In this document: piece by piece, positions 53,825 through 64,000 of the stretch
Layout of the letters: each line of letters begins with the position of its first letter
How positions within the stretch are numbered: position 1 is the first letter of the stretch
Origin: Sanderia malayensis
Taxonomy: Eukaryota > Cnidaria > Scyphozoa > Semaeostomeae > Pelagiidae
Direction: 5' to 3'
Assembly: GCA_013076295.1 (NCBI GenBank)
Contig: RQOL01000535.1
Location: forward strand, 1-64,000
Length of the DNA stretch: 64,000 nucleotides
Notes under the pieces: model-generated
What the model was told of the DNA's origin: nothing
Databases searched by the model: none
The model's input: the letters and a program-made list of their open reading frames with translations, nothing else
Translations under genes and position numbers: made by a program

Positions 53825-54306
53825 TTATATTAAAATTTTACCAATTGATATTTGTACCCACCTCTGAATGGAATGCCACATCTCCAGCTCGTTTTTCCCA
53901 CGTCCAACATTTCTTCTTCGCTCAAGTCCATCTGGGTCCATGTTCTGCATTAATGCATAAACCAATCTCCGTGGCACTTTAAGATGATGAATCTCTCTGA
54001 TCTTCTTGTGGAGTGCTTTATATCCTAACAGTTGACCAGGTCTATCCAATTCCTCTCTTACGGCTTGTTCAACATCCCCCAAGTCCTATCATCATCCACA
54101 TACTCTATGCCAAAAAACTTCATTCTCCTGCTTATACTCCTGAGGCTCCATGGATACTGTGGGTACCTTTGCTTGATAAAGTCAAGAATGTCTTTTCTCT
54201 TTAAGTTCTTCTCCACATACCCATTTAATTCTTCTTTCAATGTTTTGTCGTTCTTCCATTCACAATCACCATCACCACTGTTGTTATTAATCATGTCCGC
54301 CGCCAT
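53825..54306 (-). pseudogene. Integrase-type transposase gene, first exon (second copy)
   Basis: The frame 54306-54058 (MAADMINNNSGDGDCEWKND, YPWSLRSISRRMKFFGIEYV) and the frame 54082-53825 (DVEQAVREELDRPGQLLGYK, HHLKVPRRLVYALMQNMDPD) join by a single-base shift in ttggggga near 54080. Their product lines up with the exon at 19908-20356 (SLRTLKRKL / PGMLAGYRTIW / HIPRHFVAAIMKDIDPDG). A likely donor (gaggtgggt) follows. The catalytic exon is absent downstream, where alpha-kinase DNA lies. Confidence 0.65.
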
Positions 54307-54477
54307 TAAGTCACTCTTGAGTCAGTCAAATGTCAAAGAACGCAGGAAAACAAGCACTACAACGCAGTACAGTTTAATTTTTTCTTTTTCGGTTGTTTCA
54401 GATGTGTTACAGGCTGCTAGCCTATAGTTATACACTATATATTATTATTATTATTATTATTACTATTATTACAAGTC

Positions 54478-55360: not shown

Positions 55361-55943
55361 AATGAAAAACAAGCGTTTCACTCATGCCTCCCCTTTCCCA
55401 TTTTATTCCCCCCTTATTTTCCTTTTTATATTATATTATATTATTCTATTAACTTTTCATTTAAATTTCCTTTCTTTCTAAACAATTCTTTTTTTCAAAT
55501 TCTGAAATAAAATATATAACTAAAAATTTATGAACGCACTTTATATTGTAGCTTTGCTGTTTTTGTATTATGTATGCGTAATGCACTAACTCACTCAAGT
55601 ATATGCTCTAAATAGGGCGCTGAGCTCGAAAACCGTTTCGGTTCTTTCAGCGTCCTAAGCAACTTTCTTGTTTAACCTTTATGTAAATTAACAAGTAGCT
55701 TATATATCATAAAAAGTATCAGTATTTAAATTGTAAATTGTTGCTGAATTATATGAATTTGAATTTGAATTTGAGCTGATCTTGGTTCATCATATTAATG
55801 GGCATTTGCCAGTCAAAATGGTGATTAAATTTCGAATTTAATCAGAGTTAGGCCACATGTACACGAGCTACTTTTCTAAATATTTGGAGGGATTAACGAG
55901 TTAGCACCTTTCTTTTCCCGTGTACATGGTCTTTTTTAGAAAT

Positions 55944-56307
55944 GGCTATCTGTAAAAGGGGGAACGGGGAATCATGGAACCGGGACCGCGGAAGGGAGAA
56001 AAGGGGGAATATGACGTCACACGATGTCGTATGACGTCACATTCCCCCTTTTTCAAATCTGTAAAAGGGGGAATCTGTAAAAGGGGGAATCTGTAAAAGG
56101 GGGAATCTGTAAAAGGGGGAATCTGTAAAAGGGGCAATCTGTAAAAAGGGGAATCTGTAAAAAGGGGAATCTGTAAAAGGGGGAATAGTTTGCAATTAAC
56201 TCAAAAATGACGCACTATTAATGTGGCTTTATAATTTATTTGTACAGTGCTTTTGTCGTATATTAAGTCATACGTTCTTATCCCTTAAACTGGAAATACA
56301 CTGAAAC
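55944..56307. repeat. Left TIR of the kinase-MULE with 16-bp tandem array
   Basis: The array ctgtaaaagggggaat repeats about eight times at 56058-56187. It is preceded by the octamer pair and followed by about 120 bp of unique TIR sequence shared with the right end. Confidence 0.9.
56012..56039. promoter_or_regulatory. Paired CRE octamers in the left TIR
   Basis: Perfect palindromic tgacgtca octamers at 56012-56019 and 56032-56039 are 20 bp apart, two helical turns. This is the consensus CREB/ATF site (family knowledge). The right TIR has the same arrangement at 63964-63971 and 63984-63991. The whole 28-bp block is nearly palindromic, so it could also serve as a transposase binding site. Confidence 0.7.
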
Positions 56308-56420
56308 ATCAACAAAACATGTAAAATTGGATTAATATAAAAAAAGTGGAAATGCGCACATTGGCAACCGAACTTTAACTGAAGAGAATGATGAAAAACA
56401 ATTATGTAAATATTGCAAAG

Positions 56421-57374
56421 TTATAAATGGAAAATCAACCCAAATTCGGAAGAAAGTCGTTGCAAATGTGCCTCCTGAAAGTAGGCGATGAATTCTGGAG
56501 GGATCTCCAGAAAACCAGGATTGAAAAACATATATTTTGCTAGGATGCATCTTAGTCGCAAATGAAAATGTACATTTTGGGCTTCAGATGTAAACACCAT
56601 GTTTCCTGTAGCTCTGTCTCGATACTGTCGCATGTCCTGGTATACAACCACGAGATCCTCTGGAGCTTGGGTAGGGGGGTTTATTATATCCCCACGACAA
56701 CCGTAGCATTTTGATATACGAGTACCTGCAACCCATTTCAATGAAAAGCGGTTACCTTTTCCAGGAAGGGCAAGGCTAGGGTGCAGTGAAGCAGGCGGCA
56801 ACACATGTTGTATTGGGTGGCACGCGCTTACAGGAGGTGTCTGAACATGAGCACTGTGTGTCTGCAAAGGCATCTTATCTTTGTGGATGTCCACCATATC
56901 TTCAATTGATTTGCGCTTGTTGTTGGACCGTTTGCGATTGGAGGGCTTTTTTCCAGCTGTTTTTGGCCCACCTACAAGAGCTAGATCGACCAGGCTTTTT
57001 TTCTTTTTTGATCTTTTGAACCAATTTATGAAACTATGAATAGTACCGTTTGCCTGTGCTGCTGCTAATGTATGCTCACAGATCTGAAGGAAATACATAA
57101 CATCTTGTTATTGCCAGGAAACCTTTGTGAATCGTGGATAGCTATAAAAGTGTCTAGAATTAGTATGCCCTACCTTTGTACTGTAATGAATACAGGTTTT
57201 CTCGTATGTAAATGAGCCACCTTTGCCGGGTATTACACTGTAAAGCTTATTGTTGGCTGCTACGACACTAAATGCACCATTTGTCGCACCTGGCTGTGGG
57301 AACACGTGTTTGGGTTGCCGCAGAAGATCTGATGCTTTGTCCCACATTGACTCCAGAATCGCCGGTGTAATTAC
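56421..57374 (-). CDS. Exons 7-8: SWIM-like finger and C-terminal domain
   Basis: Exon 7 (57374-57174) ends KTCIHYSTK and exon 8 (57083-56421) begins ICEHTLAAAQANG. Joined, they form C-x-H...C-x-H, a SWIM-like zinc finger split by an intron, in the usual MULE place. Next come a Lys/Arg-rich segment (KKPSNRKRSNNKRKS) and a domain with SKCYGCRGDIINPP and FHLRLRCILAK, seen at the end of related marine invertebrate MULE proteins. Stop at 56421. Confidence 0.85.
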
Positions 57375-60300
57375 CTATATAATAAAGCAAACACATTTAT
57401 ATTTGCAGTGAGCATAAAGCAGAAAATAACGTCACCGATGTCATATGAAAACTTGTTTTGCAAACGAATCGCTCTGCAAGGAATAACGTTTAAGTTCTGC
57501 GTATCCATCACTGTTATCACAGAATGTATATATGAATTTGTATACTTGTGCTGGGCACTTGTCTCGGTTAGCAACATACATACATAATTACCTTAATACC
57601 ACTTTGTACTGCAGATATTGACAATTTTCTGTTTCGGTGATTTGCATCGTCATCATCATCATGATCATCAACACCATCATCGTCGCTGTCCTTCTCCTGT
57701 AGCTCACGCCGTGCGTTGTCCATTCCAGCATTGCGAAACTTCACAGCCTGTGCCATTTTTTGATCGTATGTCATTTTCTCCCATCTTCGATCGTCAATTT
57801 CTAGGTGTGAGTATTGATCCCTCACTTTGTAAGGTCCCTTGCCAAATACTGCACGATCTTCGTTGCGGGATTGGCCCTCGATCATATCCTGGATATGTTC
57901 GATGAATTTCTGTGGGTCTTGAGGATCATAGTGCAGCGATTTCTTTATCACCTGGTTTGCTGCCTCGTTGTCGTTTGTTGTGTACTGGTCTGGCGGATTT
58001 CCTAGCCCAGCTTCGATGCGGACCGGCTTCAAAAGGAAATCCTTTATGTCTTCTGCCTGTAAAAGTATAGCAAAGAAATGACAATATAATACAAAAATAA
58101 TAACATTCTACCTCCTGGATCAAAGTCTATAATATCTAGCACCATATGTGAATTTCTAAATAAAATACAATGCATTTGCTAGACCGTACCTTTTCTTTTG
58201 TAAACCAAGCATGGAAAGATTGACCTGGAAGTTTTCTACATGGATCGCATTTTTCCTTTTCGACCCAATCAACCTGCAATGCCTTCAGTTTGGTGTCAAA
58301 TTCAATTCCATCATCACAGTCCACTAATCCATAGAACTTTGTATGCTCTTCTTGCTTGCCAAATATATCATTCATAACGGCTTTTTTGAAGCTTGTGCCA
58401 AGACCTCTTCGCGTAATCTCTCGTTCGATGTTACCTAGCGCAGAAAACATTTCAGTAATGCTGATACCAGATACAATGATGAAATCAAGATGGGTAAACT
58501 GTTCATCTACATAGGGGTACAGAAAAGTACTTTTGAAATATTCACCTTTGAAATGAATGAAACATCGCAAGAAAATTGCAAAGGGAAAATTTCTTTTGCA
58601 GCCATCCATTATTGCCTTTTCACCGTCCGTACCACAAGCTATAATTGCTTCCAACGCTGGGTTTTCCAAGACAATGCGATGAGCGAATCTAGAATACGTT
58701 CTCCAATCTTTGCGCTGATGCATTAACACAGGGCCAATGAACATTGGTGGCTTGTTGGTATCACGTTTCATTAAGCGGAGATTTCTGTATGTTGTAACGG
58801 TGAGACTGATATTCTCTTTGAATATGTTGAACGTTGGGTCGATACCATACACGCAGAATTCTCTTGGATCGGTACAGAACTTTTCTATATCTTGCAACTG
58901 CCGATCGGTAGCCAGAACAACAAACAGCTCTGGGTGTGCGCTACATTCTCTTATAAATGACCCACCCTTTCCCGACAAACTCTCTCTTTTTGCTTTCTCC
59001 AGCAGCGACCAGAATTCGTCGCACAATACCTTTTCATTGCCATTCTGTTTGCCTGTACTTGTTGAGCTGCTAGCAGATCTTCTTGCATTGTAGAGATCAC
59101 TACGTCCACGTGGTAACTCTCCCAGACTTCTAGCTCCCAGTACGTCTCCTGAGGATAGATACACCTTGTCAAACTCACCACTTGCGCTACTTTGTTTCTT
59201 TGACTTTGAATCTCGCAGCTTGTCTCTTACACCTGGAAATACGCGGATATACTGTCTCCCGCTTTTGCTATTGCCATGAGGTTTTATTGCTGTTATCTCG
59301 TGTTCCTCTCCTTTAAATCGATATTCTAAAAATATGTACTCCCCACATTTCTCTGTTGCATCTGGAATGATGATTTAGAAGAGCAATTCAAGCAAACAAC
59401 ACAATTAACCTAGCAATATGGTTTATATATGCACGATGAAATATACAACCATAACACCAACCTTGCATGATGGAAATTGTCTTGCGGATGCTGCAATCCG
59501 ATTTGTTTTTATAATAAATCCTCTTCATTCGCCATACACCTTGCTTTCCGAACTCTGATTTTGTCACTGGGGTAACCGTGGCAGGCTTCTCGTCAATCAT
59601 GTCCACATGGTAATAGCGCTTTGGTGAGCCTGTATGCTTCCATGCTCCCATGTCATCGCATTTCAAATCTTCCCAGTTGGTAAAGCAGGAATATTCAGCG
59701 AGAAAAGATACGTTGTGAGACACATTAATCGGTGGTGCAACACACAGGGATTCCCTTGTGTAAGTCGACAGCATGATTTTTGCAATGTCCGCAAATTCGT
59801 ATGGTTCTTTTCGCCATGAAAAAACTGGTGTGCGTGTATCGCCTTTATAAGCCTCTCCATCAGGCTGCAGTGACGTATTTTCCTTTCCAGTAGAATGTTC
59901 TTCTCTGAAACACAATTTAAGCAATATAGATATGTAAGTATCCCAGAGCAATGCTCAGCATTGAAACGATAGAAGAAAAGTTGAAAGAAAACTTGTGCAA
60001 CAAAAAAAACTAATGCACCCAAGCTTACCGCTCATTTGTGCTTCGCCCTGAGAGAGTCGAGCCAAGGGAAATTACGCTGCTGGCACTGTTACTGGATTCT
60101 ACATGTCTGCTTGAGTAAATATTATCATCAAATGCTGATTGTTGGTGCAGAAGACTTGAATCTTGTGAATTAGGCTATCAGAGAATAATAATACATGACA
60201 ATGACTTTACGACTAGAGAGCACAGCTTGGAGTATATTGGAAATTATCCCGTCCCCATTCTTACCTCGATGATGGGCTTACGAAGTTGATGAATTGGTTC

Positions 60301-62387
60301 ATCGGCAATGCTGCAAAAGGCTGACGAAGCATCATGATTGTCTATCACACCCTCAGTCTATAACAAACATAAATAGTAGTTTGCAATCTGGAGACGCATT
60401 TCTCATTCGGATGCGCCGCAACGAAAAAGCCAGCTACAAACAAGGTATTGGAAGCATATAAATTGTGTCTGATACTTACTTCAACAGTCAGATTAATGAG
60501 GCAGGACTCAACAACAAAGGGATTGTATGGTTGCTTTTCTGCATTTTCGGAAACAATTGATGTGGACACTATGGCAAGCGATTGTGCAGTTTCAGCTGAT
60601 ATTCCACTGTTTGCTGCCCTTGACCATATCCATAGACAAACTGCAGTCGGTGTCTTGACATCTTCACAGTCATAAACTTTCACTTGAGCGTTGCCATCTC
60701 CATCACATAATTTGGGCACCGCATGGGTGTCGACCGAAAAAACAATACGCCCCGCCTTACCTATGATGATACTGTATGGTTCAAATGTGTAAATAGAAAG
60801 AAAAGAGTATTTTTCTTTCATTAGACAATTCAAAGAGTTCATCAAATTCTTTCGCCCTTTTGCACTTAACAAAGGATCAATGAATGGCATTTCTTCTGAT
60901 AGTTCAGTACCTGCTTCCAAATATCCATGCTTGGCCATAATTACCTTTGCCTCCGATGGTGTATATATTTGATCTCTATCGCGTAGCGGGTTTATAATTC
61001 CAGGAAAGTCGTTTATAATGACATGTGTCAAATCAGCAATTTTAGACCCAATCGTAGAGAGATTTGCACCTTCATTTATCTCCATTGTAAAATTCCTCAA
61101 TTCATCGCACAATTTTAAGGCCAGGAAAACACACGCATTTGTGCCATCCTTAGTGACATCGATGTTTCCAGGAAGATGCAGGCCTTGCTGGAATTGCTTT
61201 GCCGATTCTTCACATACCATTTCGAATGCACTGCCTTGATGTATCTTTAAATTGAAAGTTGCAGAAGTTGACTTTCTCTTAAGTTCCTTTAGAGCTCCAA
61301 CAGCACTCTCTACAGATGTTATTCGCTCATCCTGGTCATATGATGTTAGTCTTTCTGATAGATTTACTAACGGCCACCAAGCTGTAGCATGCAGCTTTTC
61401 ATACTTTGTTGATAGCGACGGGCGCTGTTGTTTTGATACTAGATCTTCAAGAGCTTCCCTGATGTTGTCGTTGGTGCACTTTAAAAAAGCGTCATGAAAT
61501 GGATACGGCTGGTTCGCATTAGTGACAACAAAAATGCACATGCCAACTGCCCACATATCAGCTGCTTTCAATGTCTCCATGTCTGCTAATGCGGGTCTCA
61601 AATTTTTCAGCAATATTTCAGGTGCCATGTACACCGGACTGCCTCGATCTATTTGTGCAACCTTCGATACCAATACTGTCTGAGTTTGAACAAGCCGCGA
61701 TCTGCTCTCACCAAAGTCACTTAATTTGCATATTACGGGCTGTGTCTCTGATATCCATTTGGCAAGGAACGAGGTCTTATCTTCGCTAAATATATGCTGA
61801 TTACTCACCAAAATATTCGCTGGTTTCAAATCACGATGAATGATATCACGTTCGTGGATATAAAGCATTCCGTTCAGGATATCGTTAACTATAAAATCTG
61901 TAACATGTTCAAAGCCGGCAAAGTCATATACCTCGTTTATATGAGACAGAAACATGGATAGCGAGCTGACGTTCGTCTCGTCTTCAAAGGCAGCAAAAGA
62001 AAAATTAACATACTCTTGCATGATAGCAAATGGACTCCAACACACTGCCTTAAATTCAGCTATGTTGTCATGCCCCTTTAGGCTATTAAGCAATTTCACT
62101 TCCTTTATGAATTCCTTTGTATTTTCTTCGCCGCACAAAGGCTGTTTGAGCACAACATGATTTTCTTTGTATTTCGCCAACATAACGAAACCAAAGCTTC
62201 CAGTGCCGATAGTACTGATAAGGTTGACTTCATTCCAATTAAATTTCTGTACGCCGTCAAGACCATCAAGCACTTTGTGCTTTGGCTTCGGAAGACTTCT
62301 CTCTGCCATTGCAAGAAAGACGTTGAATGAACTCAGAGCGGTTGTGTGTCGACTAATATCCTGCCTCAAAATTTTAGTCTTTGTCAC
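56421..62387 (-). CDS. Protein kinase-MULE transposase fusion, eight exons
   Basis: Exons (minus strand): 62387-60480, 60357-60265, 60174-60029, 59904-59462, 59361-58190, 58056-57592, 57374-57174, 57083-56421. Every intron is GT-AG, starting for example gtaagtatc, gtaagaatg, gtaagcttg and gtacgg, and all seven junctions keep frame, giving about 1,696 residues. ATG 62309 (MAERSLPKPK, residue 27) is an alternative start. Order: kinase (about 50-370), possible Cys/His hydrolase-like segment (about 395-585), Ser-rich linker (630-720), MULE N-terminal DNA-binding region (about 740-925), DDE core (D1038, D1109, E1285), SWIM-like finger (about 1470-1485), basic region and Cys-containing C-terminal domain. 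No stop or frameshift is present, so the gene may be functional. The fusion is read directly from sequence; only cDNA would prove a single transcript. Confidence 0.85.
57592..58056 (-). CDS. Exon 6: MULE core with catalytic Glu
   Basis: After acceptor tacttttacag the frame reads AEDIKDFLLKPVRIEAGLGN, then the TNDNEAANQ box, QDPQKFIEHIQDMIEGQSRN and an Asp-rich patch (DSDDDGVDDHDDDDDANH). Both ends are phase 0. Confidence 0.88.
58190..59361 (-). CDS. Exon 5: MULE transposase catalytic core
   Basis: It carries VYGIDPTFNIFKENISLTVT (first Asp, residue 1038 of the fusion), PPMFIGPVLMHQRKDWRTYS and AIIACGTDGEKAIMDGCKRN (second Asp, 1109), followed by FLRCFIHFKG, the C-x-x-H found after it in MULEs. 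The third residue is in exon 6 (YTTNDNEAANQVIKKSL, Glu1285). Donor aaaag|gtacgg at 58189. Confidence 0.9.
59462..59904 (-). CDS. Exon 4: MULE N-terminal region
   Basis: This starts in phase 2 after tgtgtttcag and reads REEHSTGKENTSLQPDGEAY, then CFTNWEDLKCDDMGAWKHTG and GVWRMKRIYYKNKSDCSIRK. With exon 5's EYIFLEYRFKGEEHEITAIK and KPHGNSKSGRQYIR it forms the conserved block, with G-E-E-H and K-P-H-G-N-S, that opens many cnidarian and sponge MULE proteins and is thought to bind DNA. The native N-terminus of an ordinary MULE would lie about here, so exons 1-3 are the addition. Confidence 0.8.
60480..62387 (-). CDS. Exon 1: complete protein kinase domain plus C-terminal extension
   Basis: Kinase elements in order: Gly loop GTGSFG (61-66), VVLKQ with Lys81, helix-C Glu96 (FIKEVKLL), catalytic loop IIHRDLKPANIL (His184, Asp186, Asn191), DFG at 224-226 (KLSDFGESRS), activation segment with APE at 255-257 (PVYMAPEIL), and the DMWAVGMCIF subdomain IX. 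HRDLKPAN and GSPVYMAPE point to Ser/Thr specificity, and nothing essential is missing. From about 385 the exon continues with NIDVTKDGTNACVFLALKLC and IVFSVDTHAVP. A Cys in an NAC box and a His in a DTH box recall papain-fold cysteine peptidases or deubiquitinases, but I could not place the third residue. The exon ends at a strong donor (gaa|gtaagtatc). Confidence 0.88.
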
Positions 62388-63679
62388 ATCTTATGCCCTT
62401 GCGGTATTTGGCATGGTACCTCTATTTTGAAAATAATACTTCACCTGCCAAACCCATCGCCAGGGTTGTCAGATTGAAATCTTCAAAACTCCCAAGTCGA
62501 GGCTCAAAAAATCCAGATATCCATTGTTTTAAAAATAAAATTCCCAAGGTTCTATTTTTCTATGGAACTGACGTCATTCATGCGAAATAGCAAAGATCAC
62601 CGATTAAGTGTGAGAACCGAACAAGACTTACACAATTAAAATTACGACACATTAAAATTAGCACTTCATAACATCCTGATATTTCAATTTTTTGCCTTTC
62701 GGAATTCGGTATCGATGTTCACAATTTACCAGCTGGTTAGTCAAAAAATTGGCTAATCATTGTTGTTCCACAATCACGAAACAATACATAATTTTCTGAA
62801 ATCGCAGACTGTTGGGGCTCAGAACTGTTCAGAGAGTGCACGCAGGCTAACAAAACCCTGGGCTGTCAGACATAAAAGCTGACAGAAAGATAATAACACA
62901 GCTGTGAGCTGAACGAGCACGTTTTGTGAACATAACATGTAACCACCATACAAGATGAACAACTAACAACTGACCAAAAATATTTCTAGAAGTCTATCTG
63001 GATGTATTGAAAATAAATGTATCTCACTTTGTAATGGTTTCTATAATTAGAAATTCTAAAAGTAAACATGAAACCAAAGAACGCACTGGGTCAAATAGCT
63101 GGTTTCCAGTCACATCACTACTCATTTGATGTATTGTTCATCAACCGTATAGGATCCTTTGTATTTTTAAACTTGCGTTTATATATGAGACAAATATGAA
63201 ATAATTCCACACTACTGGTATAGTGCTATTTCACTTCAGGAGAGGTGAAACTTCACCTGGGTAAAACTTCATTGGAAAGTTGGCAAGCGGCAGATTAATG
63301 ATTGAGGATAAAATGTAGCATGTGTATAATAAACAGGGCGCTAATTGCAAAAGTATGCGCTTCGGTAAGAAAAGGAAATAGCAAGTAACGTGAGGAAAAA
63401 GTCTCTCAGATGCTAAGATACCAACGTCAATATATTCGCGTTGAAAAAATCAGCACTCTGGTTGTCCGTGTATATGCTTTCCTTTGGAAGGTTTGCCTTG
63501 TTTGCTTCACATACCATGACGAAAGAGACATTTCAATATTGTTTTTATATAGATTTGTTTGCTGCTGTTGCTATTATTGTGTTATTGTGCTGTCGTTTAG
63601 AAATGCACCTCATATGAGTTTGTGCTTAAGCTTAAATGATGACAGTGATGAAAATTCGAGATTAACATGTTTTGTTATT

Positions 63680-64000
63680 GTTTCAGTGTATTTCCAGTTT
63701 AAGGGATAAGAACGCATGACTTAATATACGACAAAAGCACTGTACAAATAAATTATAAAGCCACATTAATAGTGCGTCATTTTTGAGTTAATTGCAAACT
63801 ATTCCCCCTTTTACAGATTCCCCTTTTTACAGATTGCCCCTTTTACAGATTCCCCCTTTTACAGATTCCCCCTTTTACAGATTCCCCCTTTTACAGATTC
63901 CCCCTTTTACAGATTCCCCCTTTTACAGATTCCCCCTTTTACAGATTTGAAAAAGGGGGAATATGACGTCACACGACATCGTGTGACGTCATTCCCCGTT
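63680..64000. repeat. Right TIR of the kinase-MULE (cut by window end)
   Basis: Complement of the left TIR, with about nine cccccttttacagatt units at 63803-63945 and the paired tgacgtca octamers at 63964-63971 and 63984-63991. The 1.1 kb between the gene start and this TIR (62590-63679) has no coding frame and probably holds the promoter; it is the part kept by the derivative at 38257-39781. Confidence 0.9.

Follow-up and report, generated by a model that had tools for sequence, protein, structure and literature searches.

Background

Animal MULEs were surveyed by Dupeyron et al. (2019; PMC6446971), the main text of which covers Phantom/Muta and other groups and 1631 MULEs. These elements share with the one described here a DDE transposase, long TIRs, target duplications (8-11 bp in those elements) and, in several groups, SWIM-type fingers; one of them, the Hydra MULE MuDR-6_HM, carries an OTU domain, which is also of deubiquitinase type. 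The word 'kinase', however, occurs 0 times in the main text of that survey, which likewise makes no mention of VTDs (viral-tegument-like deubiquitinases), whereas in the present element both domains lie within the transposase chain. VTDs themselves are treated by Erven et al. (2022; PMC9741609), the main text of which concerns those of Helitrons and of herpesvirus tegument proteins, notes that in cnidarians VTDs occur in fusion with domains associated with transposons, and suggests that the Helitron VTDs provide protection from degradation. With the domain reported below these VTDs share their fold, a signature consisting of Cys and Asp-x-His, and carriage by transposons; but the ones studied there sit in Helitrons (RepHel) rather than in MULEs, and the words 'kinase', 'MULE' and 'Mutator' are absent from the main text of the paper. 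Among plant MULEs, those with ULP1 proteases (Kaonashi/KIU; reviewed in PMC13317346) have likewise retained a cysteine protease that they captured and that targets a ubiquitin-like modifier, but do so as a separate gene and in non-TIR MULEs, and 'kinase' occurs 0 times in the accessible text of that review. 'MULE' and 'kinase domain' both occur in the accessible text of PMC3558436 and of PMC8647823, and that of PMC5225508 contains 'kinase' once. Among the titles and abstract beginnings listed in literature searches, no kinase-MULE is described; the first-pass annotation of the present DNA knew of no animal MULE with an N-terminal kinase.

Here a 64,000-nucleotide stretch of the scyphozoan Sanderia malayensis (contig RQOL01000535.1; termed here the window) is analyzed. 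The locus is best read, with a probability of about 0.8, as an autonomous animal MULE whose single gene encodes, in a protein of ~1633 aa, a Ser/Thr kinase, a VTD-type domain, a Ser-rich linker, and a DDE transposase with zinc fingers. A kinase-MULE fusion inside TIRs had been proposed in the first-pass annotation; the same order reappears in a second copy, in ~12 lineages of the genome and in a soft-coral gene model, but the domain list was incomplete, as the VTD-like domain had been missed. The sequence itself bears out the TIRs with their target duplication, a frame that stays open, and an order of domains that recurs in related elements, as well as purifying selection on the kinase.

Gene structure

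The gene lies on the minus strand (Table 1). As had been proposed, seven introns are each of GT-AG type and keep the frame: splicing the window copy at these sites yields a single open frame, and the same seven are recovered from the protein EukProt P0001 (gene6409-7140_t) by a splice-aware aligner. The reported frame of about 1,696 uninterrupted codons is indeed open, but its length is overstated: it starts at 62387 with a non-ATG codon, and the earliest in-frame ATG (62309) gives 1670 aa, a model identical letter for letter to P0001, itself a predicted gene model. Residues are numbered here from this ATG (i.e., the first-pass number minus 26). The EukProt model of the sister copy, P0002, has 1510 aa and matches at 89% over the scored part.

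The eight exons originally counted should be nine, inasmuch as an additional intron of 111 nt was overlooked; it too is GT-AG and in frame, and encodes 37 residues when retained. The P0002 model drops this stretch, and the exon 5 matches of the closest relatives (C103, C613, C836, C303 and C569) stop near residue 272 and restart near 310. At this site C155 and C464 carry 112 nt, which must be spliced out if their frame is to hold, and the 37 residues are missing from 5/5 other aligned sequences; a structure of nine exons, eight introns and 1633 aa is therefore the better model. A DNA search found this stretch in three copies only (window, C155 and C464); as the other aligned relatives lack it, the transposon may have acquired this intron recently. 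Aligner gaps of 40-90 nt in C836, C569, C778, C742 and C155b for the most part span damaged sequence and are not taken to be introns.

Table 1. Positions of the element, its gene and the encoded domains (window coordinates)
Feature	Position	Strand	Remarks
Left target site duplication	55934..55943	.	10 bp, TTTTAGAAAT
Left TIR	55944..56325	.	begins GGCTATCTG; 16-bp tandem repeats at 56056-56186; downstream of gene
AATAAA	56235..56240	-	sole AATAAA/ATTAAA between stop codon and element end; inside TIR
Exon 9	56421..57083	-	SWIM-like finger end, basic stretch, CYGC...HFH...C finger (56547-56708), stop; fingers named by eye
Exon 8	57174..57374	-	SWIM-like finger start; CxH...CxH from 57200 to 57072 across intron; named by eye
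Exon 7	57592..58056	-	third catalytic Glu, 57964-57966; E1259 (1670-aa model) = E1222 (1633-aa model)
Exon 6	58190..58434	-	part of DDE core
Intron	58435..58545	-	111-nt GT-AG; retained as coding in first-pass and EukProt models
Exon 5	58546..59361	-	DDE core, D1012 (58838-58840), D1083 (58625-58627)
Exon 4	59462..59904	-	conserved N-terminal domain of MULE half
Exon 3	60029..60174	-	Ser-rich linker
Exon 2	60265..60357	-	linker
Exon 1	60480..62309	-	ATG 62309; kinase + VTD-like domain
VTD-like domain, papain fold, probable deubiquitinase	60564..61163	-	aa ~383-582; C393, D527-T-H529
Protein kinase domain	61317..62222	-	aa 30-331; Pfam PF00069 E 1.4e-29
Right TIR	63662..64000	.	continues to 64041 outside window; upstream of gene
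Right target site duplication	64042-64051	.	TTTTAGAAAT; same contig (L009), just beyond window

Encoded domains

The kinase domain, earlier called complete, is so by its Pfam match and catalytic residues: GTGSFG (35), K55, HRD (158), DFG (198) and APE (229) are found, and G35, G37, K55, E70, D160, K162, N165, D198 and E231 are all present. A search for its donor found none: its best relatives of solved structure are kinases of diverse kinds that score weakly.

Exon 1 also encodes a separate domain, undescribed in the first-pass annotation, which matches VTDs in structure, including their papain-like fold. Its C393 and D527-T-H529 correspond to the VTD catalytic Cys and invariable Asp-x-His; among six aligned sequences the Cys and His occur in all and the Asp in five. 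These residues are lost or changed in C569, C742, C836 (Glu for Asp) and P0011 (Asn for His); in C569/P0061 the kinase Lys is lost along with the VTD residues. The one link to known VTDs at the sequence level is a match to PF04843 by one of six members, at 0.047; against PDB sequences there was no match up to E 10, an earlier search having given one chance-level row. The domain is read as a VTD-type papain-fold domain and a probable deubiquitinase. Other papain-like proteases (some bacterial effector or toxin domains) are lower structure matches that are taken to share the fold only, and an AF2 model of the domain from one sequence (pTM 0.36) was set aside.

For the remainder of the protein, a full MULE transposase had been proposed. 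The D/D/E residues and, by eye, a SWIM-like finger are there, but no direct Pfam match is: the window sequence did not reach PF10551 (MULE), and one of five members of A3 matched it at 0.074, below the cut-off. Because Pfam gave no match, the label MULE was derived by comparing profiles and by homology through intermediates: when six relatives are combined in a profile, it matches two proteins of this genome that are PF10551-positive (prob 93.5, E 2.3e-7), and exon 5 matches the C303:3371073 and C728 loci, both of which pass PF10551, at 1e-26 to 1e-32. The triad D1012, D1083, E1259 (1670-aa numbering) is aligned in 6/6 sequences, and these residues, the ~380-bp TIRs and the 10-bp target duplication fit a MULE. 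Indirect homology, DDE triad, TIRs and duplication length together assign the transposase half to the MULEs.

Recurrence and the question of one gene or two

Searches of the genome yielded 50 matches to the kinase and at least 117 to the MULE exons (106 of 166 candidates scored), which, when merged within 4 kb, correspond to 40 kinase places and 79 MULE places. Half of the kinase places (20/40) have a MULE match within 8 kb, and in all 20 the MULE match follows the kinase in the same orientation, with none upstream and none on the opposite strand; random placement, by our own arithmetic, would give ~0.3. Contigs such as C778/C780 and C440/C679, among others, appear to be duplicates of each other, and ~12 lineages are therefore counted; outside the window's own subfamily, identity is 32-56%. 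The best divergent member, C103, aligns, spliced and stop-free, over kinase, VTD-like domain, linker and MULE at 37-46% identity, shares with the window copy a phase-1 intron at aa 837 and a phase-0 intron at aa 1228, and has its own inverted arms of 658 bp at 91%; its outer ends are unclear and no target duplication was found there. The other 20 kinase places, without a MULE match within 8 kb, include weak matches, which may be ordinary kinases, and two 544-aa kinase plus VTD-like frames (C289:264297-265820 and C675:5351451-5352405; L063, L064), which are solo genes or else elements with a diverged or lost MULE.

The genome is that of an animal, with 45 Wnt-domain matches, and the relatives of the element point to a cnidarian. 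Beyond this genome, the soft coral Dendronephthya gigantea (Octocorallia) has an annotated 712-aa protein, P0005, of which the kinase is 38% and the C-terminal part 43% identical; the latter matches the MULE N-terminal domain, and the VTD-like domain is absent. P0007, a 631-aa ORF from a JGI record, joins kinase and VTD-like domain in one ORF (34% over 576 aa). A protein search with the MULE half found 193 matching proteins; among the matches listed (120 of 193) only P0001, P0002, P0004 and P0061, whose names follow the naming scheme of the window's genome, bear a kinase Pfam label, which is weak evidence either way because many of the remaining proteins are so short that they may each represent one exon. 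The MULE half occurs without kinase in P0009 and P0010 (both Dendronephthya), P0003 and P0031, and is joined to the end of a VTD-like domain in P0011, which from its 'Seg' label we take to be from the jellyfish Aurelia. On the simplest reading of this distribution, a MULE lineage associated with cnidarians would have gained kinase and VTD-like domain once, and losses would have followed. In P0011 and P0003, acidic stretches before the MULE core (IIDISDSSSD, IIEILSSPE) look by eye like SUMO-interacting motifs.

The same kinase-MULE order, a search for which had been recommended, is thus found in a second copy, in ~12 lineages and in a soft-coral gene model; and in the copies whose ends can be read (window, C155 and C103) the kinase nowhere lies outside the TIRs. 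Together, the relatives in the same genome and in the soft coral suggest an old, selected arrangement rather than an accident.

The halves might nevertheless be two genes within one TIR pair, namely a kinase-VTD passenger and a MULE with separate mRNAs, the frame through introns 1-3 being accidental or a minor isoform. If exon 1 is left unspliced, its frame continues for 45 codons before it ends, and could give a kinase-VTD protein by itself; the C289 and C675 frames without a nearby MULE match and the MULE-only proteins P0003, P0010 and P0031 would fit as well. Yet the frame has no Met between aa 497 and 734 from which the conserved MULE N-terminal domain could start, there is no AATAAA/ATTAAA in 60480-59905 (between exon 1 and the MULE exons), while fused gene models exist at several loci and in Dendronephthya. 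These features favour one mRNA for kinase and transposase, and the constancy of order and strand in 20/20 pairs likewise speaks against two genes, an arrangement we consider unlikely.

Selection and divergence

For the C103/C778 pair, dN/dS is 0.27 for the kinase (340 codons), 0.34 for the VTD-like domain (256) and 0.74 for the MULE N-terminal exon (119). Between window and C155b kinases, synonymous change is saturated (107 at 141 sites), as against 109 changes at 543 nonsynonymous sites; between the kinases of window and C155 there are 3 synonymous and 4 nonsynonymous changes (dS 0.0139, dN 0.0049). The VTD-like domain of window/C859, at 1.14, is without constraint, and that of window/C464 has 15 nonsynonymous and 2 synonymous changes, a pattern that would suit copies in decay or a domain under relaxed constraint. 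The kinase is retained in most cases, though not in all. Kinase and MULE distances correlate (r 0.85, 28 pairs), a value taken to mean only that the halves are about equally diverged, because two close pairs (C103/C778, C569/P0061) drive it.

These data bear on a second alternative, that a host kinase was captured recently in Pack-MULE style and rides along without function for the element. MULEs are known to take up host gene fragments (accessible texts of PMC5225508 and PMC13317346); the kinase here, however, is complete, is as diverged between lineages as the MULE half, is under purifying selection in C103/C778 and window/C155b, and is present in the soft coral, all of which makes a recent capture highly improbable.

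Element ends and close copies

Matching long TIRs around the gene had been reported, and hold up: two stretches, of 270 and 176 bp, are 97% and 96% complementary, respectively, with the perfect 10-bp duplication just outside. The TIRs start with GGCTATCTG at 55944 and, on the opposite strand, at 64041, the element extending 41 bases beyond the window (read in L009); they are ~380 bp long with 16-bp tandem repeats, which recall Rehavkus. The C155 copy is 98% identical over most of its length, has the same domain order, is stop-free from residue 10 onward and carries TTTGTACGAC at both ends; there are thus two insertions with different target duplications and, in both, the kinase is inside the TIRs. 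Two further copies are damaged: C464 is interrupted by an insertion and has 2 stops in its MULE half, and C686 is broken.

A DNA search of the same genome with the element gave 237 matches, and among the matches listed many are short elements sharing its ends. At the fetched loci 18 pairs of ends were found, of which one false pair inside L009 was dropped; perfect 10-bp duplications flank 15/17 paired ends, or 13/15 distinct ones after removal of L016 and L020, which repeat other duplications; L022 and L038 show no target duplication at their paired ends. Many short nonautonomous elements within L014-L038 share the ends of the kinase-MULE element and carry 10-bp duplications; several of them retain the sequence that precedes the kinase, and a piece of the C-terminal coding region is retained in L014/L022. 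In C778, C780 and C103 the kinase is preceded by an inverted copy of the sequence that encodes the MULE C-terminus (L060:381-641, L061:3350-3610, L070:1587-1637), so that there the TIR seems to reach the last exon.

That the locus is instead a domesticated host gene, a transposon no more, would fit the intact frame and purifying selection too, but given the TIRs, the perfect target duplication, the intact DDE residues, the 98% identical copy with a different duplication and the TIR-sharing short copies with duplications of their own, it is the least credible of the readings.

Possible function and significance

Host kinases control other transposases. The MULE half would cut and paste TIR-bounded DNA, the short relatives included, and the N-terminal module would control the element's host setting. 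Joined to the transposase in one chain, a kinase and a deubiquitinase-like protease would accompany it everywhere. The VTD-like domain could deubiquitinate host factors or the transposase, which it might protect from turnover; the kinase could phosphorylate and switch the transposase, for which the Ser-rich linker is the closest candidate target, or else act on host proteins nearby. The first-pass annotation had suggested the transposase, host chromatin or repair factors as possible substrates of the kinase. With its own kinase and VTD-like activities, we propose, the element would depend less on host kinases and resist turnover. Taken jointly, these steps are tentative. More doubtful still is the proposal that this lineage long ago built a virus-like host-control cassette (an active kinase and an active tegument-type deubiquitinase) into its transposase, for joint use against host silencing, DNA-damage signalling or transposase turnover, and that this cassette has been selected in cnidarians.

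Were these readings true, a transposon carrying its own kinase and deubiquitinase-like domain within its transposase protein could regulate itself or manipulate its host, the latter in the manner of herpesviruses, which use the same protease family; and MULEs would be a second transposon class among the known carriers of tegument-type proteases. The intact copies, TIRs, target duplications and short nonautonomous relatives provide a concrete system in which to study roles of phosphorylation and deubiquitination in transposition.

Neighbouring sequences

On the minus strand at 53825-54321 there are two short ORFs that by eye resemble part of an integrase-type transposon protein; a Pfam search with one of the two gave no match. 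At C103:99000-110400 (L070, L074) an integrase-core ORF (PF00665, 5.9e-12) comes after the kinase-VTD-MULE element, and before it there is an ORF that by eye resembles a packaging ATPase, so that this element may sit inside a Maverick/Polinton-like element.
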